Made by a program: the position numbers and the translations under genes. Source: Bolinopsis microptera (lineage: Eukaryota > Ctenophora > Tentaculata > Lobata > Bolinopsidae). From it: a DNA stretch of 64,000 nucleotides. The DNA lies in the NCBI RefSeq assembly GCF_026151205.1, contig NC_087080.1, forward strand, positions 11,889,837 through 11,953,836, in the 5' to 3' direction. The notes under the pieces were generated by a model, which ran no database searches, was not told the DNA's origin, and saw only the letters and a program-made list of their open reading frames with translations. Of this stretch, positions 1 to 25,237 are shown in pieces (within the stretch, counting starts at the first letter, position 1; each line of letters opens with the position of its first letter).

Positions 1-1001
1 GCCATGGTCCTGTGTACTCTGCAATTTGTCTTTGAATTCTGTGTAGAGTAATCAAGGAGAGCAGTTTCCTAGTTCCATTCAGAAGGCAAAGAGGTCTAAG
101 GCTCTTTAGAGGTCCTTTTGGTTTCCCTGGCTTCTGAAGAGGGGTTAGAAACCCTTCCGTAAAAGAGGGTACATGCTCATGTACTTCGAATGATCGATTA
201 ATGAGACATGCATATTGCTGGAAGAATACAGGTGGTGCGTACTTCAGCAGCTCGTTAGGAATCTCATCAGGACCTACTGCTTTCCCATTTTTCAACTTTG
301 AAGCAGCATATTGGACTTCTAAGGAAGTTATAGGAGTATTCAGAGGACGTGGGAGTCCAGTGAAAGGTACCAAAGGAGGGTCTGAGCTGGTGTAGTGATT
401 TTTTAAACCACTCTCTAATGATACTTGCTTTCTCATCGTCACTTGCAACTAGCTGATTTTCAGAGTTGAAGACAGATATTGGCTCTGACTCTTTGTTGGC
501 AGCAAGAGCTCTGGTAGCCTCGAACATCCTCTTCGTGTCATCTGCAGCGTTGATGGTGTCAGCTAGTTGGTTGGCTAGAGCTGTCTCTAGCACTTTAAGA
601 CGTTTATTGATATCGTTCTTGAGTTTATTGATACGTTTTCTCAATACTGTCCTGTCTCTAACTGAATTGTCGTTCAGTTCTTGTAAAAGTTTGTGTCTCT
701 CATCAGACATATTACATACATGCTGATCTGATGAATGATGATGTCTTTGGGTTTTCTTCTTGACACCCACAGTGTTAGAGGCTGAAGACTTGATAGTTTC
801 AAACAGCTGTTCGAAACCTGTCTTAGTGTCAGCGGAAGGTGGAAGACTGTCAATTTGCTGAGTGACAGTTTGCTGGTACTGATCTTGTAGTTCCTTGTTA
901 CAAACCAGCGATGTCGTGTTGTACCTTTTAGCAGCTGATGTACTGTTTCGGTATAACTTAGTTTGCTGCCTCAGGTCTATGGTAGCTTTTACAATCTTAT
1001 G
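1..1001 (-). mobile_element. LINE-A, linker and start of reverse transcriptase (decayed)
   Basis: This is part of ORF2 of a non-LTR retrotransposon read on the minus strand and cut by the left window edge. Positions 1001 down to about 405 encode a charged linker (KATIDLRQQTKLYRN, then a Lys/Arg-rich helix and IIREWFK). From about 400 down to 1 the reverse transcriptase N-terminus follows in another frame (LEVQYAASKLKNGKAVGPDE, LINRSFEVHEHVPSF, LCLLNGTRKLLSLITLHRI). The change of frame falls at a run of six T at 399-404, so one inserted base explains it. The endonuclease half lies beyond two insertions, at 3328-3472 and 12663-13318. Bases 993-1001 are the left TSD copy of the Mutator-like insertion. 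The element is inactive. Recognition as LINE ORF2 is firm; the exact clade is not determined. Confidence 0.88.
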
Positions 1002-1570
1002 TAGGGCCTGTCGTGATATCATGGATCGCTTAGGTTCCACCAGGATCTGGTAGTCCTTATAATTCTGCGGCCTCTATGTTTTGTCATCTCGCACAACTCT
1101 TTAAGAATCTTGTGGATTTGGCATGTGAAAATTTGCAGCCTTCCAGACATTGATTGGGTTAACGAGGTGTCGTACGTCACCTCAAGATCGGGTGACAGGG
1201 GGCTGACCAGGCCAGAACCCAATTGATTGGGTCTTAGGTCACGTGATTATGAGCCTGAGGTCACGTGACTATGACGTCACCAGACCTTCCTCTCCGTTTC
1301 CCGCTCATTGGACCAGGTGAGCTTGCATGCATGTGAATGTGGGTGTAAGTATAGCTGTACTGTAGTTTATACCTAATTAAACCCCTATAGAAACCGAAAA
1401 TTTATTTTCTGGCAGAAAGCTAGAAATTTACCAAAATATCGTCATTGTTTTAAATTTATTTTGATGACCATTCCTGACCTAAAATCGCACGAGAAATCGA
1501 TTAAACTTGGTTTCAGAACTCAACAATGCTTCCTTATGTCTTAAAATCCATGTTTTACCAATACAATCAA
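1002..1570 (+). repeat. Left long terminal inverted repeat of the MULE-type element
   Basis: Matches the reverse complement of 2750-3318 almost base for base by eye. Both arms contain the same spurious 67-codon reading frame (minus 1019-1222, plus 3098-3301), which simply reflects the repeat. Each arm carries two TCACGTGA-type sites and a TGACGTCA-type site about 250 bp from the tip. Confidence 0.9.
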
Positions 1571-2194
1571 CATCTCGATCATGTAGTTAAACTTATTACT
1601 TAACGGATTCAAGTATAGTTACGCGGTAGACAAACTAAAAGAAGGTAATATTTGGAACAAATATTTTACGAGTATCACCCGTTAAATAAACTTATATTAT
1701 GTATAAAAACCTTGTGTTATGTGGCAGTTGTATTGCAATTTGTGCAATTTCAGTTGGGCAGCCTTTTTTAAGTGTCTGTTATTTCAATTTTCGTAATTAA
1801 TCTGGAAGTATTATCGGCATCTTTTCACACATATATGACTACTAGCACATACACAGTGGCCAATAAGCTGTACACAGCAGGGTTTCAGCGTAATAATCGA
1901 TCTTTTAGAATGTTCTAGTTTGAGTGTAGAATAGCCATTAGAGCTGAGTGTAAGATTAGGTAGGATTAGTGTATAGCTTTTGGATGGTTTTGCGGAGTAA
2001 GACACGCGTTAGTAGGGTGCATTAGTTAACAATATGTGGCCAATTGCAACAGCTTATTCTACTGATAGAATATATCGACCAATGGCAGCAGTTTTAATCA
2101 AGATTACGCTAAAAAGGGCTGCTAAATCACGCAAGAAATGCAAGCATTATTTTAATCGTTACATTTTCAATTCGTTACAATTTTCCATTCAAAA

Positions 2195-2754
2195 ATGAAG
2201 TTTTCCTCCCTTATTGGAGAGCCTCTTGAGTTACCTCAAACGATTCCTTCGACTAGGAGAGTGCTTCAATTATTACTTCTTAGAAGTGACCAGCAACCGA
2301 AGGTACAGATTAACAGAATTCTGACCTTGGTGGCTGAGGAACTTGTTCAATTTTATGCTGAATCGGAATTATTGATATCTCTTAACAGTAAAGCCAACAT
2401 CTTCAAGTATGTAGTTTCAATTTCCCTTGTAAATATTGTCGCTGAATATATGATCAAGCTATTAGATATATTATTACTTGCAACTTTACACGTGAATTTT
2501 TTATTCTTTTTGTTACAATTCGTTCGATATCCGTAGATTAAGACAGAAGTTGAGGGAGCGAGTGTGAGCATAGAACACGTATCAGCAAATTACGGACTTT
2601 GTTTGTTTATGATGTAACACTTATTTCGGAGGTTTTTATTCATTCATCTTTTACTTTTAGAAAACTGAAGAAACTTCATGCAACCATGAAGAAGATCCGT
2701 AACTGTAAAGTCAACAATACACCGTACGCCGACTTCCAGGATGAATTGAACTGA
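2195..2754 (+). CDS. Small two-exon ORF carried inside the MULE-type element
   Basis: Exon 1 (2195-2406) starts at an ATG. A GTATGT donor at 2407 pairs with a pyrimidine-rich TTTTAG acceptor ending at 2660, and exon 2 (2661-2754) keeps the frame to a TGA. The predicted product is 101 residues: a Pro/Leu-containing N-terminus (LELPQTIPSTRRVLQLLL), a helical middle (ILTLVAEELVQFYAESELL) and a basic helix (KKLKKLHATMKKIRN). I do not recognise a domain with confidence. It resembles, from memory only, short helical N-terminal regions of element-borne proteins in invertebrate genomes. The stop codon lies at the inner edge of the right TIR, so it may be a truncated captured or element-derived gene. 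The splice prediction is inference. Confidence 0.4.
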
Positions 2755-3318
2755 TGTATTGATAAAACATGGATTTTAAGACATAAGGAAGCATTGTTGA
2801 GTTCTGAAACCAAGTTTAATCGATTTCTCGTGCGATTTTAGGTCAGGAATGGTCATCAAAATAAATTTAAAACAATGACGATATTTTGGTAAATTTCTAG
2901 CTTTCTGCCAGAAAATAAATTTTCGGTTTCTATAGGGGTTTAATTAGGTATAAACTACAGTACAGCTATACTTACACCCACATTCACATGCATGCAAGCT
3001 CACCTGGTCCAATGAGCGGGAAACGGAGAGGAAGGTCTGGTGACGTCATAGTCACGTGACCTCAGGCTCATAATCACGTGACCTAAGACCCAATCAATTG
3101 GGTTCTGGCCTGGTCAGCCCCCTGTCACCCGATCTTGAGGTGACGTACGACACCTCGTTAACCCAATCAATGTCTGGAAGGCTGCAAATTTTCACATGCC
3201 AAATCCACGAGATTCTTAAAGAGTTGTGCGAGATGACAAAACATAGAGGCCGCAGAATTATGAGGACTACCAGATCCTGGTGGAACCTAAGCGATCCATG
3301 ATATCACGACAGGCCCTA
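2750..3318 (-). repeat. Right long terminal inverted repeat of the MULE-type element
   Basis: Reverse-complement partner of 1002-1570. It ends in GACAGGCCCTA directly before the second TSD copy at 3319-3327. The inner boundary is approximate, because similarity fades around 2745-2760, next to the stop codon of the internal ORF. Confidence 0.9.
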
Positions 3319-3327
3319 AATCTTATG

Positions 3328-3472
3328 ATCAGAATGTAGTTTAGCTCCTGCATAGGCCCTTGCATCATTGAGAAAAACAGTGCTGCGTGACCGGCATAAA
3401 ACATAATCAATCTGAGAAAAATAAGGGCGACTTCTTTTGGTCTTCTTGTCTTTCACCCAACCAGTTCTTGTT
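3328..3472 (-). mobile_element. LINE-A, endonuclease C-terminal fragment between two insertions
   Basis: On the minus strand these 145 bases read in one frame as the end of an apurinic-type endonuclease: GWVKDKKTKRSRPYFSQIDY, VLCRSRSTVFLNDARAYAGA, KLHSD, which runs on across the MULE TSD to HKIVKATID. The QIDY and SDH motifs are the conserved end of the exonuclease-endonuclease-phosphatase fold of LINE ORF2. It joins 1-1001 on one side and 12663-13318 on the other once the MULE-type element and LINE-B are removed. It is a third piece of the same retrotransposon, not a gene of its own. Confidence 0.85.
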
Positions 3473-3866
3473 GTTATTAAATAGAAAACTTATATATTTT
3501 AACAGTTTGATTCGACGTAGGCTGCTCCCGTCCAATTTTGGTGTCAGTTATGTGGATGGATTTGATGAGTTCTGTGATAGAGATGGTCTACTTGACCGCT
3601 CTCTCTCTCGCGACCTCAACAAACACCAAAAACCAGACTTCCTTCACCTCAACTGGAGGGGACTAGCAAAGTTAGGTCAATTTATTCGTAACACTGTTCT
3701 TCTCAGGATTAACGGTGGTATCGACAAAAGGAAGAGGAGGTCCACAAAGGTAGACAGTAGATCCTTCAGGGATGTGACTGCTGGAAGAGAAACTGGTCCT
3801 GTTGTTCCTGCTGCTGCTAGTCAGGGTCACGTGGATGGCTACCAACCACATGACTCCCCTCATTAA
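3473..3866 (+). pseudogene. LINE-B ORF1, 3' end only (esterase-like tail)
   Basis: The open frame from 3473 to the stop at 3864-3866 reads through YVDGFDEFCDRDGLLDRSL and PDFLHLNWRGLAKLGQFI. The D-x-x-H-x-N...G arrangement matches the catalytic Asp/His block at the C-terminus of SGNH-hydrolase (esterase) domains found in ORF1 of CR1-like LINEs. The N-terminal part, with the nucleophilic Ser, is absent because the element is 5'-truncated. The frame seems to begin upstream at 3387, but that part is LINE-A sequence. It overlaps the start of ORF2 by 32 bp, as in compact two-ORF LINEs. Confidence 0.65.
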
Positions 3867-5627
3867 GGAGGTATGTCTTGTCTGTTCTAAGAACATAGTC
3901 ATCGGCCAAACAATAGTTGAATGTTTCCACTGTGACTGCATAATGCACCATAAATGCTATCGCAAATCCAATACAAATAGCCAATCTAATGAGTTTTACT
4001 GTACTCGTTGTATCCATTTAGACAAGGTTAAATACAACCCATTTAAACTACTCACTGACAATGACAACGACGACAACAACCTAGACGAATACACAACCAA
4101 AATCTCGAATACTTTAAATAATTGTAACTCATACACTGCATCTGACCTTACCAATATTCTCTGCAACCAAGTAAAGAAACAATCATCTATTCTCTTTCAA
4201 AATATTGATGGAAATAAATCAAATTTTGACAACCTTGCCATTGAAACCTGTAGGTACAAAACAAAATTCTCCGTAATAGGCCTAGCTGAAACCAACACTG
4301 GGAAAGAATTAAGCAACCTATTTCAGCTCGACGGTTATAATAGTTACTATCAGGACACAGCACCTAACAAACAAAAGGGCACTGGAGTAGCCCTTTATGT
4401 TGACGATAGATTAAATGCTACAGTAATTGAAAATATATCACAAGTCACAGAAAATCTAGAAATACTTGTCTTATCATTAAGTAACGAAGATCAACCTGTT
4501 AATGTAGGTGTTTTGTATCGTCCACCAAGTGGCTGTATTTCCCAAGCTCTAGTTGAACTTTCTAACCTTCTTGATCACATGCCGAAGTTTAGTTATCTAG
4601 CTGGAGACTTTAATATCGATCTTCATGATAAAGATAACAAAAATGTACAAAAATATGAAGAAATATTGTTCAGTAAAGGATTTTGTCCGTTAATATCTAT
4701 TGCTACTCACGAAAAACCAGGCTGTAAAGCATCTTGCATAGACAACATAATTACCAACGACATTGAGAATGTTATTACTTCAGGCACCCTAAAAGAACGA
4801 ATAACTCACCACTCGCCTATTTTTAACATATTTAACTGGAATGTTGAAGTCAACTCTGGAAAAACTTCTATTAAACAGTATTACGATTTCTGTCAATCAA
4901 ATGTTAACGGCTTCCTAGTGGATCTTGAAGATGAGCTTAAAACTAAAATAATCCATAACTTTACTGAATTCCATGACACTTACAAAAACTGCATCGAAAA
5001 ATCGTTTAAACTAGAAACCCCGAAAACCTCTAAGAGAACTGTTAAGGTTAACCCTTGGATAACTCCCGGTCTCATTTGCTCAATTAATAATCAGCATAAA
5101 CTGTACGAAAATTGGGTTGAGATAAGAAATAGAAAATGTAAACTCGGGGAAACTGATAACAAGGGCGGGATTTGCCAGTGCCCTGAATGCTCACTAAAAC
5201 GTAGTCGCTACCTTATCTACAAAGAATACAGAAAAGTCCTAAAGAAAACACGTCAAACAGTGAAAACAGATTACTTCTCTGGTAAATTTGCAGAAAATAG
5301 CGGGAATAGTAAAAAGACCTGGGAACTAATTAATAGTATAAGAGGAAAACGGCGGCGTGAAATAAAGCCGCTGTTCACCATAGACAACGTTAAGATAACG
5401 AACAGGAGGATCATAGCAAACGAATTCAATAAGTATTTCGTATCATTGGCCTCTGACCTAAATACTGCTTACAATGAACTTGGTCAAATGAACATAAACA
5501 ATCTACCTAGTTTCTATGACTATTTACCGCTCTCAAACACCTCCAGCATTTACATGCATGACTGCACAACAGACGAGGTTAGCAAAATCATATCTGAACT
5601 TAAGAACGGTAAGGCAAGTGATATTCC
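3835..5627 (+). pseudogene. LINE-B ORF2, N-terminal part: PHD-like finger, endonuclease, start of reverse transcriptase
   Basis: The first ATG in the frame is at 3835; the open frame extends back to 3802. Residues about 12-60 form a PHD-like zinc finger (CLVCSK, ECFHCDC, HHKCY, FYCTRC). An apurinic-type endonuclease follows (NIDGNKSNFDNL, GLAETN, GDFNIDL, THHSPIF) and then a Lys-rich linker. The frame enters the reverse transcriptase at LKNGKASDIP and is broken there by the DNA transposon at 5628. Codons continue exactly at 9503 (IHVVK), counting one copy of the 8-bp TSD, so this half and 9495-11078 are one former ORF. The apparent end at 5649 is transposon sequence. Confidence 0.9.
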
Positions 5628-8600
5628 CCCATATCCAAAAAATTTTTAATTTCCTACATTCTCAATTTTTTCGTTTTCTGTGGCCCGCTCGCTTCGCTCG
5701 CATAAAATGTCTTTGTATTCGCGTGGTTCAAAGATTTTTCATGGCGGATTCCAGATTCTCAATTTTACTTTTTTAGGGCCCGGAATGCTTTTTAATAGAT
5801 AATCCTAGGTTACTTTTGGGGGCGAAGCCCCCGAAAATTTTGGAAATTTAAACTAGATTTGGCCTCTGGAACGAATCTGACAATGGAGAACGATTTTAGC
5901 ATACTATTTTCTGATTTCAATTTTTATTGGGATAAATTGTCTGGATTCTAGAATCCCTAAACACTTGGCTTAACTAAAGCACGAAATAGGAGACAGCATG
6001 AAGAATCAAGAGTTTATAATTTTGGCAAAAATGTTTTCTCATCTACTACCATCACTTTCTGCTTTCAAGCTATAAACTAATACAGGGTTAAGGGAATTTG
6101 GAGAAGGAAGCAAGTAAGCGACCAAATATTCAAGAAACAAGGAATTTAAATTTCCAAAAATATAATAATGACTATTAGTATTTACTATTTAAATAAGATA
6201 GGAAACGCAACAAAGAATGCTTATGCATTATGCATGTTTAGACGTATTACATCAACTCATAATACTATATAATGTTCTTTGAACTCCTGACATAAAGTTA
6301 TTACAATTGCATTGATGACCGTTCACAACATTACATGATTGATAATGCTATTATCAAAACTGGAATGGTAGTCTATATTGGGATTTGCAGAAGTTTTCTA
6401 TAGCCGCCCCCATCCCCCCATGGGTGGTTTTTAGAAAAGAGTGGTTTTTTGCAATTCTCGTAGCAACCCGTTGAACAAGCTTTTCACCCTCAGCAGAACA
6501 TGGTGATGGGGCCATCAGCCTAATCTGGTCTGGAGTCGCCACATAATCGATAACTTGTTATTTTATTTAGATTAAAAACAATTTGAACGTACATGAGCAC
6601 ATCTGAACTGGTTCTCAGTGAGTTCTCATTGAGTCCAGACCCTGTATTTTCTGCACTCAAGTCAATGTTTGACGTTACTTTAGTTGTATCACGTGCTTTC
6701 TGAAAACTGCTACATGCGATGTTTTAACGATAAATACGGGGTTGTAAATTTTGCTCATACTTAAAGCTTTTGATCAGTTTTATAAATTCTGAGTCAAGAT
6801 CAATCCAAGATATGTATATTTAGCAAAGTGATACCTAACTAGGATCAGGAGCATGTAAAGATAATTAATGCAAAAATGATTTCCACCCGATTAATGTCTT
6901 AATGTGATAGCTACCTCAACTAAGGTTGATTCGGTATGAATTCATAGGGCTGATGCCCTGGGTGACACCTCTTAAAATGAACTTTTAGATTATCGGCTCG
7001 AGTACAAACTTCTTTGCATATACCGCATTAGACCTCGGATTTAGACTTGAACTTTGGACGATTCATGATTAATAGGAAGTTCAACAACCCAATGTAAGCA
7101 ACAAAAGCAAGCGGGCAGAGCGACTAATTAAAAAACTAGAAAAAGTCCAATTCTCACGCCCATTCTAGCATCATCGTACAGATTAGTTAAAACGCCCTGT
7201 TTTTCTGATAGCATCTCATTAAGTAACCACGTGGTATAGCAACTAGCCAAGCAAACCTCTCCAAATAACCACGTGGTATGGCAACTAGCCAAGCAAACCT
7301 CTCCAAATAACCACGTGGTATGGCAACTAGCCAAGCAAACCTCTCCAAATAACCACGTGGTATGGCAACTAGCCAAGCAAACCTCTCCAAATAACCACGT
7401 GGTATGGCAACTAGCCAAGCAAACCTCTCCAAATAACCACGTGGTATGGCAACTAGCCAAGCAAACCTCTCCAAATAACCACGTGGTATGGCAACTAGCC
7501 AAGCAAACCTCTCCAAATAACCACGTGGTATGGCAACTAGCCAAGCAAACCTCTCCAAATAACCACGTGGTATGGCAACTAGCCAAGCAAACCTCTCCAA
7601 ATAACCACGTGGTATGGCAACTAGCCAAGCAAACCTCTCCAAATAACCACGTGGTATGGCAACTAGCCAAGCAAACCTCTCCAAATAACCACGTGGTATG
7701 GCAACTAGCCAAGCAAACCTCTCCAAATAACCACGTGGTATGGCAACTAGCCAAGCAAACCTCTCCAAATAACCACGTGGTATGGCAACTAGCCAAGCAA
7801 ACCTCTCCAAATAACCACGTGGTATGGCAACTAGCCAAGCAAACCTCTCCAAATAACCACGTGGTATAGCAACTAGCCAAGCAAACCTCTCCAAATAACC
7901 ACGTGGTATGGCAACTAGCCAAGCAAACCTCTCCAAATAACCACGTGGTATGGCAACTAGCCAAGCAAACCTCTCCAAATAACCACGTGGTATGGCAACT
8001 AGCCAAGCAAACCTCTCCAAATAACCACGTGGTATGGCAACTAGCCAAGCAATCCTCTCCAAATAACCACGTGGTATGGCAACTAGCCAAGCAAACCTCT
8101 CCAAATAACCACGTGGTATGGCAACTAGCCAAGCAAACCTCTCCAAATAACCACGTGGTATAGCAACTAGCCAAGCAAACCTCTCCAAATAACCACGTGG
8201 TATGGCAACTAGCCAAGCAAACCTCTCCAAATAACCACGTGGTATGGCAACTAGCCAAGCAAACCTCTCCAAATAACCACGTGGTATGGCAACTAGCCAA
8301 GCAAACCTCTCCAAATAACCACGTGGTATGGCAACTAGCCAAGCAAACCTCTCCAAATAACCACGTGGTATAGCAACTAGCCAAGCAAACCTCTCCAAAT
8401 AACCACGTGGTATGGCAACTAGCCAAGCAAACCTCTCCAAATAACCACGTGGTATGGCAACTAGCCAAGCAAACCTCTCCAAATAACCACGTGGTATAGC
8501 AACTAGCCAAGCAAACCTCTCCAAATAACCACGTGGTATGGCAACTAGCCAAGCAAACCTCTCCAAATAACCACGTGGTATGGCAACTAGCCAAGCAAAC

Positions 8601-9494
8601 CTCTCCAAATAACCACGTGGTATGGCAACTAGCCAAGCAAACCTCTCCAAATAACCACGTGGTATGGCAACTAGCCAAGCAAACCTCTCCAAATAACCAC
8701 GTGGTATGGCAACTAGCCAAGCAAACCTCTCCAAATAACCACGTGGTATGGCAACTAGCCAAGCAAACCTCTCCAAATAACCACGTGGTTAGTCAGCCAG
8801 CTGTGTATCATGACCCCACGTGTAATGGTCCTTCTCCACTGCTCACTAAAACCCTTCCTAACCCAGGTTCTTACTTTTATCAGTGTTCTTCATTGTAGTA
8901 ACCTCCACCACGCATCAATACTGTGCTCTGATTGGCTGATATTAGCCACATGACACCAATACTGCAATGTGATTGGCTGTTTAAAGTCACGTGATATTTT
9001 CTCACGCCACACGAATTTGGGCTGGGTGTGTGCAGTGTGATACACACATTGAAGACGTGATGTGTATATGCTACTGCTTGCCAATACAGATATCGGGTGA
9101 CACTGTAGACATATCCGGTTTTATAGACTAGATAAGTAGATAGTAAAATGTTAATAAAGTAATAATGACAACTATTTATGTCGTGTACATGAAAATGCCC
9201 CAATAATTAGCATCTGGTTAGTGGTTACTTGAAGCACAGATTTTGTAGCTAATAGCAACAAACTTTGGTCTGTGAAACGAAATTTGATAGACTGGATCAG
9301 TGGATCCCTGACTGAGGACATTTAAATAACGGTCCAGCAACTTTTAGTCTGCTCTTTCACTTAAATTCCTACTGAAATATTATCGAAAATTCTCAGAGTT
9401 GGCTCTCGAATTTCCTACTTTTTGTCAAAAATTTCCTACTTTTAAAAATTTCCTACATTCTTAGAATGCGAGAATGCGGGTTTTTGGATATGGG
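5628..9494. mobile_element. 3.87-kb non-autonomous TIR transposon carrying a 42-bp minisatellite, 8-bp TSD
   Basis: The ends are a perfect 14-bp inverted repeat, CCCATATCCAAAAA (5628-5641) and its complement (9481-9494). The same 8 bases, GATATTCC, flank it at 5620-5627 and 9495-9502. The subterminal motif ATTTCCTAC occurs once near the left end and several times near the right end, as expected of transposase-binding repeats. No transposase reading frame is visible. The interior holds AT-rich filler (about 5.7-7.2 kb), a 37-unit minisatellite (7227-8788) and a segment with two ATTGG sites and a TCACGTGA. It inserted into the LINE-B reverse transcriptase. The 8-bp TSD fits hAT, P or Zisupton-type mechanisms, but the CCC terminus is not diagnostic and the superfamily is left open. 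Confidence 0.88.
7227..8788. repeat. 42-bp minisatellite, 37 full units
   Basis: Each unit is 42 bp and begins with the perfect palindrome CCACGTGG. Counting from the first palindrome (7227) to the last (8781) gives exactly 37 periods. Units are nearly identical; the visible variants are a G/A change (TATGGC or TATAGC) in a handful of units and one A/T change at about 8052. Because 42 is divisible by 3 and the unit lacks stops in several frames, long reading frames appear on both strands (14-residue repeats such as WQLAKQTSPNNHVV). These are consequences of the repeat, not genes. It lies wholly within the 5628-9494 element. Confidence 0.97.
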
Positions 9495-11078
9495 GATATT
9501 CCTATTCATGTTGTAAAACAGTCCTCAAAAATAGTCACTCCTCTACTTACTGTACTGTACAATGAATGTATGAAAGATGGCATATTCCCTGATGACCTTA
9601 AGATTGGAAGGATTAGTCCAATTTACAAGAAAGATAACCAGGAACTCCTTGAAAATTATAGACCTGTGTCGACACTTGCAGTATTTGGTAAAATATTTGA
9701 AAAAATTATATTCAACAGATTATATAGCTTCTTTCATTCACAGAATTCCTTGTATGAAAACCAGTACGGATTCCGTAAAAATCATTCGACTAGTTATGCT
9801 TTAAATTACTCAGTTAACCACATAGAATCACGTCTCAAGAAAAAACAACACGTACTTGGAATATTTATTGATCTTAGCAAAGCTTTTGATACAATCTCAC
9901 ATGAAAAGTTACTGCATAAGTTAGAAAATTATGGGATCCGTGGAAATGCAAACAACCTTATAGCAAGTTACCTGTCGAATAGATACCAGTATGTCTCAGT
10001 ATTAGGTGAAGACTCTGAGAAACTGCCCGTTGTCTACGGAGTGCCCCAAGGGTCCTGTTTAGGTCCCCTGCTGTTTATCATCTACATAAATGACATCCGA
10101 AACTCATCAATTATAGGAACGTTTATACTATTTGCCGATGACACTAACATATTTATTGAAGAAACATGTGTCAGAAGACTGTACGAAAAGGGAAATGAAG
10201 TTTTAGCATCTGTTTATAAGTATATGAAACTAAACTTATTACATATTAACATTAAGAAATGCTGTTTTATCCACTTTAGACCGTCACGTGCCAAAGAGGA
10301 AGTAGAAAATGACGAGAACATATTAACTTTGAACAATGTTGTCATTAAAAAAGTCCAAGAAGCTAAATTTCTAGGTGTCATTATCGATGATCAACTTAAT
10401 TGGAAAACTCACACACGGTCACTTAACTCAAAACTTAAATGTGAAGTAGGTAAGTTATGCAGAATACGACACATTGTCCCTAAACAGTATTATAAGGATT
10501 TATACCATACTTTATTCGAATCACATTTGGGATTTGGAATATCTGTATGAGGTGGTATTAGCAACAACCGACTCGAACCTCTCTTTAAAACACAGAAAAA
10601 GTGTATAAGAATTCTATTTGGGGATAAAGAAGCTTACTTAGAAAAATTTAGAACTTGTGCCCGGACACGACCATTTGGTGAGCAAAGACTAGGTGTGGAC
10701 TTTTACAAAAAAGAACACTCTAAGCCCTTGTTTAAGAATCAGAAATTGTTAACTGTTCACAACCTGTATAAGTACACTTGTCTCTTAGAACTATTCAAAA
10801 TTAATAAGTTAGAGGAACCATTATCACTGTACTCATCATTTAACAGGTCACCACGACGAGAGGATTATTTCATCACATCACAACCATCCTCACAATTCAT
10901 CTACCAATCATCCTACATGTGGAACAGCTGTCGACAAACATCAAGTAAGATAAGTTTTAATACTCCGACAAACGGGTTTAAGAATACATTGAAAATTGCT
11001 TTACAAGAATTGCAATTCAAGCATGATACACTTGATTGGTGTGAGCTTAATTTTGCCACGAATAAGCTCAAGTTTTGA
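9495..11078 (+). pseudogene. LINE-B ORF2, reverse transcriptase and C-terminal part, with one nonsense codon
   Basis: This continues the ORF2 frame after the transposon. Reverse transcriptase motifs are in order: PIYKKDNQELLENYRPVS, FGKIFEKIIFNRL, FIDLSKAFDTISHEKLL, GVPQGSCLGPLLFIIYINDI and the catalytic FADD in FADDTNIF. At 10548-10550 a TGA interrupts GISV-stop-GG, where LINE proteins of this group have Trp, so TGG to TGA is the likely change. The same frame then stays open to 11078 and ends with a C-terminal block containing WNSCRQ and FKNTLK. The element therefore carries few disabling lesions apart from the 5' truncation, the transposon insertion and this codon. The apparent start at 9474 lies in transposon sequence. 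Confidence 0.92.
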
Positions 11079-12662
11079 TTAATGTGAGTTACTAAAATAA
11101 CCACTTATCTTTCCTCATACATGCAACCACTGCACTCCAACTAAACACATTATTTACCACAGTCCACACACCATACTCCACAGATGATATATTTATATAT
11201 ACACACAAACACACTAGTACCGAACAATTGCACTGTAAAACATGCTCACGATACACTCAAAATTAGAAATATTCGGCTCGTATATGAAACTTAGCGACTT
11301 ACACTCAGTGTACACCCAGTGTTAACCAGTATTACACACTAGTAAATTCTACGTAACGCGCGAAAACAATAATTCTGTAGCGTTTTCATTGTCACATTTC
11401 ACGTCGACGGGATTAAACGCGCGCGCGCGTAACAACTTATCTTACTGCTAACTCAGCGACTAGACACACAACGACTTCGACATTTGACAGATGACTAAAC
11501 AATTGTGAGTTATGACGGACTTAACTGTATGGGTCAACTACTGAAACTATATTGTTTACTATCTTATTCATTATACTGGACATGAGATGACGAAGTATCT
11601 TAAGCAGCACTTTATACCCCCACTTAGAACTTGATTAGTCACGAACAATAGAATCATCAAAAACCAATACAATAAAACATCTTGATCAATAAATGCCTAG
11701 CAGCACCAGACAGCAGCCGTGTACCTTTTTCGACTCCGTGGAGTCCCTGATGGACTTTTGTTTACTTTTGTTAATAATCGGACTAACCTTTCTTTCTCGA
11801 AACATGTATCCTATTGTATTTCATTATAGTATTAAGATGTGAAGATATACTAGATATTACAACGAAATAGAGGTATACCAAATTGGCCCTTGATATGAAC
11901 TATAACCGTGTTGATGGTTTTAAATTTTGTATGTTGTAAGCACTTTAGTTTGTGAAGCGTTTACTCCTCCCCCTCAGCAAGACAGCTAGATTATAGATTA
12001 ATGATAATAATTGTCAAATGTCGTTATATATTATATAACAGTTATAAATGTTCAATATTTGTAGAGCGACTTTAAGAGTAGTGGTCCACAGGGGTCCGAA
12101 AAAGCCGTACAGGCACTTGGGTCCTTATCCTTGTCACTAATCTCAATTGGATTCGGTTTACACAAAGCATGAACATTTAGACGTACACATTGACACGATA
12201 TTTATTAGAAAGCAAAAAGTATAAAATAATACGTGCGTGCGCGGCTTGAGCCGCGCCGCATAAGAACGGATGCGTGTAGGGGCTGGAGTACGCTTGTATG
12301 TAAATTAATGAAATGTTGCATTGTAAATATTTAGAATTGACGATATATTTTGATCTAAAAGTAAATTTTACAAAGCTGGCTTTGGATTTAGGTAAGATTA
12401 TAATTTATTTTTTTAAAAAAACCACGGATAATTTTAAATGTATTTCTATTTGTCGTATAATCATAAACAATTTAATCATGTTTTTAAGAATGCGCGGCTT
12501 TGGCGGCCAGTTATTGACTTATACATTAAATTGAATTTTAAATAGAAATGTGAATATATTAAAATTTAAAACTTTCAAAACGGAGGCTTATAAATATTAT
12601 TATATTATGATTGTAAAATAAAGGATAAAATTTTAAATTTGTTTCACTAAAAATTTGTTTCA
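11079..12662 (+). mobile_element. LINE-B 3' untranslated region
   Basis: Non-coding tail of LINE-B. It contains a (CG)n stretch near 11420, several short hairpins (for example GCGCGGCT-TG-AGCCGCGC near 12240) and ends in two copies of an AAATTTGTTTCACT repeat instead of poly(A). The last 1157 bp (11506-12662) are repeated at 16789-17929, which confirms this as an element 3' end. Reading frames in it, such as 12313-12534, are not supported. Confidence 0.85.
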
Positions 12663-13318
12663 CTTGTTATATGACGACTGGAATGACGAAATGCAGTGTT
12701 TGCAGCAAACAAACCATTAGAAACAAGAAAATCCAATAATCTCCCACCATTTTCATTTCGTCTTCCGACGCCATGCCTTCCAATGTTCTTATGAAGGCCA
12801 TTTTGAAAGTCATGATCAGACCTTTTGCCAAGTTTGGCATTGAAATCTCCTAGGATCCAGATTTCATGTCTTGCAGGCACATTAATTGCTTCCTGAAGCT
12901 CACAGTAAAACTGGTCAGTAGCAGCCGGATTTGATAAAGTTTTTGGGTTGGTTGGACTGTAACAGTTCACGATTCGCATTTTGCATGGTGGTTTGTTAAC
13001 AAACTTGGATGGAATATAAAAGTCCATGAAAGCAACTCGATCGCTGATCTGATGAAATGAACGGAAATAATGATTTACACGAGCGTTGATTAAGAAACCC
13101 AGTCCACCATGACGTCCTGTCTTCTGATCAAACAAAAGGAGGCGATGATTTCCTGGTAGTTTCTTATCCTCAAACTGACAAATTTTAGTCTCTTGTATCC
13201 CTATAATGTCCAAGTCATACCTGTCACAGTCGTTAGCAAGCAAGCACTGCTTGTCTGTCTTCGTCAAACCTCGAACATTCCAAGTAGCAAAGCCGAGAAG
13301 AGCAATTGGTAACAAGGA
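12663..13318 (-). mobile_element. LINE-A, endonuclease N-terminal part
   Basis: Minus-strand frame from about 13318 down to the LINE-B junction. It encodes the first two thirds of an apurinic-type endonuclease: ATWNVRGL, LDIIGIQETK, GGLGFLIN, IVNCYSPTN, IWILGDFNAKLG, GGRLLDFLVSNGLF and RHIT at the junction. ETK supplies the metal-binding Glu and GDFNAK the catalytic Asp/Asn. A stop lies just upstream and there is no good ATG, so the 5' end is degraded or truncated. The three bases of apparent coding beyond 12668 and the stop near 12647 belong to LINE-B. The domain is completed at 3472-3328. Confidence 0.88.
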
Positions 13319-13913
13319 TTACGGTGACCAGTTCTACAGTCTTTCTACTCAGCCGAATACTCGAGAAATCGGGTGTGAGGGTTAAATGAGGAGCTGCACA
13401 TTGCAGCAAAGTCTCGGGCGAAGAAAGTATGGTACACACTACCTTAACCGTCACTGGCTAAAAACAAATCCTTCGGCTTCCTGTAATTGGCTGGTTGCAT
13501 TTGTGTAACAATGTGGCTGTTGGAATACTCCGAAGTAAAATAAGTGTCTTGATAAAAAAAGAATGATTTGTGATTGCTGGAATGTCAATGATATCTTAGC
13601 TGTTGACATAACGTAGATATTAGTACTAGTATGAGCACATAGATAACATATATAGCTTAATATATTGTAAAAAGTAACAATAACTAACCAGACATTGTTA
13701 TACAGCGTCAAATCAAGCCAATTTTAAGACAAAAATAAAGAAAAACATACACAAACTATACATACAAATATAACCTTTTAAAAGCTATTTAATTTTACCA
13801 CAATAATCTAATCCTGATTTTACAATAATCGAATCAATAAATAATGTTGTTTATAGATATTTGTCGACCAACATAATTAATAATTTATGAACAATTTTAT
13901 TAAATAATATGAT
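13319..13913. other. No gene seen
   Basis: AT-rich sequence next to the LINE-A 5' end. Two short minus-strand reading frames (13233-13454 and 13451-13711) have no recognisable motif. Some of it may be LINE-A 5' untranslated sequence. Confidence 0.5.
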
Positions 13914-16373: not shown

Positions 16374-16788
16374 TAGTGTCGTACAATGGCAGATTCTAGA
16401 TGTTTTAACAGAGCGCCTCATTTAAACCTCAATCACCGATTTCCCAATCATCTCAATAGTTTTTCTATCTGAGCTGTTTGGTTCACAGAAAATCAGATAA
16501 TATGGACAGTTATACGTTTATGACTATGTTTTGAACAAAGTTTGTTTCAGTAACCATTGAGAACTTATGTCCACATGCCCAAATTGGTGTAAATGAAAAA
16601 TGTTAAGACATGCACCTTATTTATATGAAAATATTTTCCTTATAAAGGGCAACCACATTTTTTTGTTTGATACTGCGTTGTTTGTGATTTTTCTCATTCA
16701 AAGAAACAGGGCTCGGAGATGAATGAAATGGTCTAAATTTCAGGGGGCCATAGTTAAGGTATGCAGCAATTTTTATCCATGAAAGTTA
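16374..16788. other. No gene seen
   Basis: AT-rich intergenic sequence between the hAT MITE and the LINE-B 3' copy. Nothing recognisable. Confidence 0.5.
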
Positions 16789-17929
16789 TGAGTTATGACG
16801 GACTTAACTGTATGGGTCAACTACTGAAACTGTATTGTATACTATCTTAATCATTATACTGGACATGAGATGACGAAGTATCTTAAGCAGCACTTTATAC
16901 CTCCACTTAGAACTTGATTAGTCACGAACAATAGAATCATTATAAATCAATACAATAAAACATCTTGATCAATAAATGCCTAGCAGCACCAGACAGCGGC
17001 CGTGTACCTTTTTCGACTCCACGGAGTCCCTGATGGACTTTTGTTAATAATTTGACAGCAACCTTTCTTTCTCGAAACATAAATCCTACTGTACTTCATT
17101 ACAGTATTAAGATAATATAAAGCAAATCATGTCAATATATGACTACGAAATAGATCTATAGATTTGTCCATAATATTTAATACCGTATTGATGGTTTTGA
17201 ATTTTGTATATTGAATTTTAATGTGAAGCGTTTACTCTTCCCCCTCGGCAATTAATTAGAAAGTTAGATTAATGACAATAATTGCCAAATGACGTAGTAG
17301 ATATAAATGTTCAATGTTGTAGAGTGATTTCAAGAGTAGTGGTCCACAGGGGTCCGAAAAAGCCGTACAGGCACTTGGGTCCTTATCCTTGTCACTAGTC
17401 CCAATTGGATTCACTTTACACAAAACATGAACGTTTACAATTTAGACGTACACATTGGCACGATATTTATTAGAAAGCAAACAATATAAAATAATACGTG
17501 CGTGCGCGGCTTGAGCCGCGCCGCATAACAATTTATTGCGTTTAGGGGCTGGAGTACGCGTGTTTACAAATTAATGAATTGTTGCATTGTAAATATTTAA
17601 AGTTGACGATATATTATGATTTAATAGTAAATTTTTCAAAGCTGGCTTTGGACTTAGGTAAAATTATAACTTATTTATTTAAAAGAAAAAACCACGGATA
17701 GTTTTAAATTTACATAGTCGTATAACTATAATCAAGTTAATCCTGTTTTCAAGAATGCGCGGCTTTGGCGGCCAGTTATTGACTTGTACATAAAATTGAA
17801 TTTTAAATAGAAATGTGAATGTATTAAAATTTAAAACTTTCAAAACGGAGGCTTATAAATATTATTATATTATGATTGTAAAATAAAGGATAAAATTTTA
17901 AATTTGTTTCACTAAAAATTTGTTTCACT
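16789..17929 (+). mobile_element. 5'-truncated second copy of LINE-B (3' UTR only)
   Basis: Collinear with 11506-12662, sharing long blocks such as TGAGTTATGACGGACTTAAC, ACTCC(A/G)(C/T)GGAGTCCCTGATGG, the GCGCGGCTTGAGCCGCGC hairpin and the final AAATTTGTTTCACT repeats. Differences are scattered substitutions and small indels, including about 10 bp missing near 17045. It begins abruptly inside the 3' UTR, which is what incomplete target-primed reverse transcription produces. No clear TSD is seen. Confidence 0.9.
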
Positions 17930-23537: not shown

Positions 23538-23873
23538 CTATCTCCATTACGGCCCCCCATTTTTCGTATTGTCACTTAGTACGGTCACAGTCTCGCGTTC
23601 CATTATGGAATCGATTATAAAAAGCTTTTAGAGTGTAGCGTATGGGAGAGAATATGTGTCCTGACTTCTTCTTCTTTCCCTGCTTGCTTTGCTTTGGGTC
23701 CGAGCTGACTTTTACCTCTCTTTTTGTTGTGTTGTGTTTTACGGATTTGTGTTGCTCTACTTTGACAATTAATTGTCGGTGCGTTGTTTTATAGTGTTTG
23801 TGTTTAATTTACAATCACGCTTTTTATTAAAATCTTGTCATATCCCGGTTTCAATAGTTTAACTTTATGTTAA

Positions 23874-25233
23874 GGGGGGGGGGCCAATGGATATTTTTTT
23901 GTGAAACTTGATTTCGAGATAGCAGTTGACCAACAAACTAAGACCAGTGACCGAACTTTTGAGGGGGTCCCGGACCCCAACCGCCAAACGGTGCCCGCGG
24001 GGCAGCCACGCCCATATTTGGTCCAAATTAGGCCCAATTTAGCCAAATACTCTGAACATGCCCAAAACCCAAATTTTAGGTGCTCTACTTGTAGCTAGTG
24101 GTCTCTTGAAGTCGTATATGAAATTTCATCAAGATTGGACAAAAAATGACTGAGTTATGAGCCAAAAACCATATGCCCATATTTGGGCATACGCACCAAA
24201 TTTGGTAGATTTCGTCCCATAAATTGGTCAAATATCAATATTTTTCACTGAAACTTACTTTATATGAAAGGTAAGCCTAAACTACATATTCTCTGTAAGT
24301 TATAGCTTTATATCTGTTTAAATGTGGATACTAAGGCGATAAGACCACAAAAAATGAACTAAATTGCCCATATCTTGGTTCGCGATATTCGCGGAATTGA
24401 TCTCATTAAAATTGTAACAACTCAATCAGTTTTCAAAATTTTTCCATGAAATTTTCGGAATCGACTCGAAATCGCATTTCCACCTTAGTTTGAGAACAGA
24501 TTTTTGATTAAGGCCTCAAAAAAAATTTGGCGGCCAAATTCTGAATTTCTCCGGGAAAATTTTGGAATTTGGCCGCCAAATTTTTTTGGAGGCCTAAATC
24601 AAAAATCTGTTCTCAAACTAAGGTGGAAATGCGATTTCGAGTCGATTCCGAAAATTTCATGGAAAAATTTTGAAAACTGATCGAGTTGTTACAATTTTAA
24701 TGAGATCAATTCCGCGAATATCGCGAACCAAGATACGGGCAATTTAGTTCATTTTTTTGTGGTCTTTTCGCCTTAGTATCCACATTTAAACAGATATAAA
24801 GCTATAACTTACAGAGAATATGTAGTTTAGGCTTACCTTTCATATAAAGTAAGTTTCAGTGAAAAATATTGATATTTGACCAATTTATGGGACGAAATCT
24901 ACCAAATTTGGTGCGTATGCCCAAATATGGGCATATGGTTTTTGGCTCATAACTCAGTCATTTTTTGTCCAATCTTGATGAAATTTCATATACGAGTTCA
25001 GGAGACCACTAGCTACAAGTAGAGCGCCTAAAATTTGGGTTTTGGGCATGTTCAGGGTATTTGGCTAAATTGGGCCTAATTTGGACCAAATATGGGCGTG
25101 GCTGCCCCGCAGGCACCGTTTGGCGGTTAGGGTCCGGGACCCCCTCAAAAGTTCGGTCACTGGTCCTAGTTTGTTGGTCAACTGCTATCTCGAAATCAAG
25201 TTTCACAAAAAAATATCCATTGGCCCCCCCCCC
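23874..25233. mobile_element. 1.36-kb near-perfect palindromic element flanked by TTAA
   Basis: Two arms of about 668 bp (23874-24541 and 24565-25233) are reverse complements with only scattered mismatches, separated by about 23 bases. The tips are ten G (23874-23883) and ten C (25224-25233), each followed inward by GGCCAATGG-type sequence. TTAA lies directly outside on both sides (23870-23873 and 25234-25237), a TSD used by Kolobok and piggyBac superfamilies. The same 65-codon frame appears once per arm (plus 23901-24098, minus 25009-25206) because of the symmetry. No transposase is present, so it is a foldback-type non-autonomous element. Assignment to Kolobok over piggyBac is a guess. Confidence 0.88.
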
Positions 25234-25237
25234 TTAA

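Follow-up and report, generated by a model that had tools for sequence, protein, structure and literature searches.

The order in which transposable elements arrived can be inferred from nested clusters of such elements, as in REANNOTATE (PMC2672092) and TinT (PMC3014933), and both nested insertion and ordering by nesting are routine and established practice. We analysed a stretch of 64,000 nucleotides (G000:C9:11889837-11953836, hereafter the window) in a 265-Mb genome of 232 contigs, in which a nested stack had been described at positions 1-13318. Four mobile elements and a fifth, foreign piece are found nested inside one another at this locus. Almost certainly, the stack was built by successive insertions of LINE-A, LINE-B, a MULE-type element, a TIR element and a minisatellite segment.

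Reconstruction of the stack

The features are given below in window positions, with the strand where one is assigned and the basis in brackets.

1-1001, minus strand: LINE-A piece, RT side of the ORF (many copies of about 99% identity run on across the window edge and stop at a common place)
993-1001: left TSD of the MULE-type element, AATCTTATG (gap-free empty site in copies of about 99% identity)
1002-3318: MULE-type DNA transposon, putatively non-autonomous, with 564-bp TIRs (TIRs and TSD)
3319-3327: right TSD of the MULE-type element, AATCTTATG (empty site, TSD length in the family)
3328-3477, minus strand: LINE-A middle piece, endonuclease domain region (comparison with intact copies)
3471-3477: probable left TSD of LINE-B, TTGTTAT, replacing CTTGTT (intact LINE-A copies; LINE-B copies continuing upstream of TTAAATAG)
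3478-12663, plus strand: LINE-B, a non-LTR retrotransposon truncated at its 5' end and split by the TIR element (copy comparison, domains)
5620-5627: left TSD of the TIR element, GATATTCC (empty LINE-B site; 8-bp TSD in nine other copies)
5628-9494: TIR element with 14-bp TIRs CCCATATCCAAAAA, carrying the foreign segment 7211-8991 (TIRs, TSD, copies)
7211-8991: fifth layer, a 37-unit 42-bp minisatellite (7224-8789) with about 200 bp of flank (absent from other TIR-element copies)
9495-9502: right TSD of the TIR element, GATATTCC (empty LINE-B site)
12664-12670: probable right TSD of LINE-B, TTGTTAT (intact LINE-A copies and LINE-B copies continuing upstream)
12671-13334, minus strand: LINE-A 5' piece, start of the endonuclease domain, 5'-truncated (intact copies go on with CGATC...)
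13335-13346: right TSD of LINE-A, TACAGTCTTTCT (left copy at L009:4588-4599)

The inserts were closed in silico and the joins were searched in the whole genome for uninterrupted copies. The 745-base LINE-A join, in which both inserts are closed, was fully covered by ten copies with 98.4-99.3% identity, and several more diverged copies also matched it. The 600-base LINE-B join was covered without gap by 20 copies (98.5-100% identity), six of them at 600 of 600 bases. Since intact copies span the joins, the reconstruction is right in outline, far beyond chance, and the nesting is real. This bears out what the initial annotation had proposed, namely a LINE-A in three pieces, split by the MULE-type element and by LINE-B, and a LINE-B split by the TIR element: intact copies elsewhere are contiguous across every proposed junction, and the empty LINE-A and LINE-B sites were both found uninterrupted. 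These intact copies and empty sites demonstrate the insertions of LINE-A, LINE-B, the MULE-type element and the TIR element, whereas we infer the names of mechanisms, such as target-primed reverse transcription, from anatomy. Multi-copy, nearly identical elements such as all of these invite misassembly, and the stack might in principle be a chimeric join of repeats. However, misjoins make no TSDs. Here a matching TSD pair flanks every insertion, each empty site is found exactly elsewhere, and both DNA elements show the TSD length of the rest of their family; an assembly artefact is thus extremely improbable.

LINE-A combines the endonuclease and reverse transcriptase domains of a LINE (non-LTR retrotransposon). 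Exo_endo_phos was detected by Pfam profile in the 5' piece (3.8e-10), and the FDTI and YADD motifs of the reverse transcriptase were read by eye in the intact copy L004. The frame of the window copy is broken by a one-base insertion compared to other copies (900 versus 899 bases, with a frame change in translation). The outer limit of 13318 proved too short, as LINE-A reaches 13334-13339, where CTACAG is followed by CGATC in intact copies and by TCTTTCT in the window. At the other end the element leaves the window by about 1.4 kb on the left, its 3' end lying at G000:C9:~11888436 (L009:4600); in the genome comparison most LINE-A copies stop at about L009:4597-4610. A 12-bp TSD, TACAGTCTTTCT, is present on both flanks, and its first five bases, TACAG, may be microhomology with LINE-A. 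The copy is 5'-truncated by a short part yet nearly full length, because the conserved sequence of other copies extends only a few tens of bases further. As a first step, LINE-A, an endonuclease-type non-LTR retrotransposon, landed, probably by target-primed reverse transcription, losing this short 5' part and creating the 12-bp TSD.

Other LINE-A loci were seen in the genome. Three tandem partial copies of the 3' region, of about 930 bp each, lie at G000:C7:11175315-11178151. Copies at G000:C5:5457339-5502232 and C6:14443537-14466460 have identical scores and are spaced 22.0 kb apart on both contigs, which points to a 22-kb repeat or segmental duplication common to C5 and C6.

Target sites of the MULE-type element and LINE-B

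Regarding the MULE-type element, the proposed TSD AATCTTATG was confirmed with exact 9-bp boundaries, giving an element of 1002-3318, and closing the site restored LINE-A without gap. All five other copies with both ends readable carry perfect 9-bp TSDs of differing sequence (CAGTACATT, TGACTCCCA, CATTCCGTA, GTATATTGA and TTGTGGAAG). Together with the window copy, they fall within the 8-10 bp, normally 9 bp, of MULE TSDs, and the 564-bp TIRs (>99% identical, three mismatches in the alignment) match the long TIRs of MULEs. Among 88 genome matches to the MULE transposase profile PF10551, none lies inside copies of this family; the 4.8 kb that were read of a long copy on C2, part of that copy, hold another LINE and no transposase, and the interior ORF of the window element gave no Pfam match worth noting. 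Because no MULE transposase domain was found in family copies, "MULE-type, non-autonomous" is the limit of the assignment, the putative superfamily being read from TSD and TIR structure. This element inserted into LINE-A, at a site apart from that of LINE-B, with a 9-bp TSD.

The interior of the window element may hold a short two-exon ORF at about 2195-2753 (about 101 aa, joined by eye). The LINE inside the long C2 copy has a 1001-aa open ORF (L094:845-3850, minus strand) and belongs to a third family, so nesting is not special to the window.

The TSD initially proposed for LINE-B, CTTGTT, has to be replaced. Closure at CTTGTT leaves a 3-nt gap compared to the intact LINE-A copies of about 99% identity, which read CCAGTTCTTGTGGTTATATGACG at this site. 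The window reads CCAGTTCTTGTTGTTAT/TAAATAG on the left of the insertion and TTTGTTTCAC/TTGTTATATGACG on the right (the slash marks the boundary). When 3478-12670 was removed and one TTGTTAT kept, there was no gap and a single substitution compared to intact LINE-A. This G-to-T change at 3472 is synonymous: ITTRTG is kept, whereas the CTTGTT closure gives ITRTG, and the open frame after closure is 510 aa with TTGTTAT versus 509 aa with CTTGTT. The claim that each junction restores a protein motif in frame therefore stands, except that the LINE-B closure first proposed drops one codon. From the comparison of copies, the LINE-B TSD is best read as TTGTTAT, of 7 bp, which places LINE-B at 3478-12663. 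CTTGTT is literally present on both sides of LINE-B and could still be the TSD if this LINE-A copy had already been short of three bases at the insertion point. However, the intact copies read CTTGTGGTTATATG, so that an exact 3-nt deletion would be needed versus one substitution for TTGTTAT, and LINE-B copies share sequence from TTAAATAG onwards only, which leaves the preceding GTTAT unexplained under CTTGTT. Such a history is disfavoured and very unlikely. With TTGTTAT as the TSD, the G-to-T change at 3472 is present in both TSD copies; by parsimony, it most likely predates LINE-B, and would have arisen in the window LINE-A copy as a second step, before LINE-B arrived.

LINE-B also has the domains of a LINE (non-LTR retrotransposon), with RVT_1 at 8.1e-38, above the Pfam curated cut-off, and a weak match to Exo_endo_phos at 1.4e-4, slightly under it. 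LINE-1 ORF2p and R2 were among its PDB matches. Once the join is closed, its endonuclease-RT frame stays open across it, with one private stop at 10550. Other copies continue upstream as ...GCTGACTTAAATAGAAAACTT, and the window LINE-B is thus 5'-truncated. Nine 5' stretches taken from other loci were examined; seven run into LINE-B upstream sequence, two are not LINE-B there, and no LINE-B 5' end was reached in these nine. The tails of most copies end in CACT followed by varied flank. The family gave 392 first-look candidates, and the six copies elsewhere that match the window exactly for 600 bases (e.g. L030-L035) mark LINE-B as a very recently active LINE. As a third step, LINE-B, with SGNH-like and PHD-like upstream sequence and an RT that is putatively CR1/L2-like by its motifs, inserted into LINE-A in 5'-truncated form, with the 7-bp TSD TTGTTAT. 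It should be noted that the LINE-B family has another 3' piece in the window, at 16786-17928, which is older (86% identical) and carries the common AAATTTGTTTCACTAA tail repeat.

The TIR element and its minisatellite segment

For the TIR element at 5628-9494, the exact 8-bp boundaries at GATATTCC agreed with those first described. Perfect 8-bp TSDs were present in the nine other copies with both ends readable, ten including the window copy. This is the TSD length of hAT elements; TSDs of 8 bp are also made by other superfamilies such as P and Zisupton. No transposase was seen in the window copy, and ORF reading of the longest copy seen (L093, 4.1-kb interior) found short stop-to-stop ORFs only. 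Neither DNA element's family yielded a copy with a transposase, and the superfamily of the TIR element, like that of the MULE-type element, is a provisional reading of TSD and TIR structure. As a later step, the TIR element inserted into LINE-B with its 8-bp TSDs.

The minisatellite had been counted as part of the TIR element, which the comparison of copies contradicts. It consists of 37 units of 42 bp, 31 of them identical, followed by a right flank of 202 bp, and the whole segment (7211-8991) lies between direct repeats of TGATA at 7206-7210 and 8992-8996. This segment is missing from about 25 other TIR-element copies, among them the longest seen, on C3, and those holding both sides pass straight from about 7210 to about 8992; the segment is thus private to the window copy. 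In the genome search a single further clear relative came up, on C12; it has about six units and a like flank (86-92% identity), and the 2.8 kb read around it contain no TIR-element sequence. The similarity to the C12 relative runs to GTCACGTG, so part of the TGATA repeat may be microhomology. No TIRs were seen at either end of the segment, which is therefore more probably a templated or captured insertion than a transposon in its own right, and the TIR element would have gained this foreign segment either before or after landing.

Conversely, the segment could have belonged to the TIR element from early on, a single deletion between TGATA repeats having removed it from nearly all other copies. 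The flanking TGATA repeats would fit a microhomology deletion, and internal deletions are common in the family. However, the approximately 25 copies, the longest included, have one common junction, the window copy is no outgroup in the family tree, and the related C12 segment is not within a TIR element; such a loss is unlikely, and a gain by the window copy is preferred. The 42-bp units carry CACGTG palindromes and the flank contains ATTGG. That the TIR element captured a promoter-like piece of the host and mobilised it as this segment, with expansion of the array from about six to 37 units, is a speculative and rather doubtful idea. A palindrome (fold-back) of about 1.37 kb at 23870-25237 of the window is 86% identical to L092:63-1408, beside the C12 minisatellite locus.

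Chronology of the insertions and comparison with known systems

Private differences numbered 11 in 3219 bases for LINE-A (0.34%), 1 in 3600 for LINE-B (0.03%), 7 in 2314 for the MULE-type element and 13 in 1600 for the TIR element (0.8%); large private counts of some LINE-B copies were excluded, since these loci probably extend past the element end. The values of LINE-A and LINE-B agree with the nesting order. The TIR element has more private differences than the surrounding LINE-B, and a simple clock would call it older. Its family tree is star-like, with branches of up to about 1% per copy. The disagreement with nesting arises because a cut-and-paste element can bring earlier mutations with it; LINE-B might also seem younger than it is through gene conversion by its near-identical copies. 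Dating of the TIR element by private differences contradicts the nesting and was rejected: its arrival must be younger than that of LINE-B.

Taken together, these results support the order LINE-A, LINE-B, TIR element, with the MULE-type element placed only after LINE-A. Because the MULE-type element and LINE-B occupy separate sites in LINE-A, their mutual order is not readable, and they were rightly left independent of each other. The insertion order first proposed thus holds, except that the minisatellite is a further layer. At this locus, in an unannotated genome, the relative chronology of several apparently recently active mobile families is well resolved. Two cautions are also illustrated: a short direct repeat picked by eye may prove not to be the TSD once intact copies are compared, and nesting can date a cut-and-paste element whereas private mutations cannot.

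The locus is ordinary nested-transposon biology at base-level resolution, with nothing outside known transposon biology; the present analysis confirms the stack at the level of single bases, corrects boundaries and adds one layer. LINE-B resembles CR1/L2-like LINEs in its endonuclease-like region, RVT_1 reverse transcriptase and PHD-like and SGNH-like upstream sequence, as well as in its 5' truncation and in a 3' tail formed by a short tandem repeat. The MULE-type element resembles MULE (Mutator-like) DNA transposons in its long TIRs (564 bp) and in the 9-bp TSD of every copy that could be read at both ends, but the window copy lacks a MULE transposase and the longer family copies lack a PF10551 match. 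The Tetris foldback transposon (PMC4079207) is likewise a DNA transposon carrying tandem repeats able to expand, whereas the present array is private to one copy and not a family feature. As in REANNOTATE and TinT (PMC2672092, PMC3014933), the younger element interrupts the older, order is taken from nesting and fragments are rejoined across the insert; those methods address genome-wide sets, whereas the present comparison concerns the empty sites of one locus, at single-base level and within one genome.
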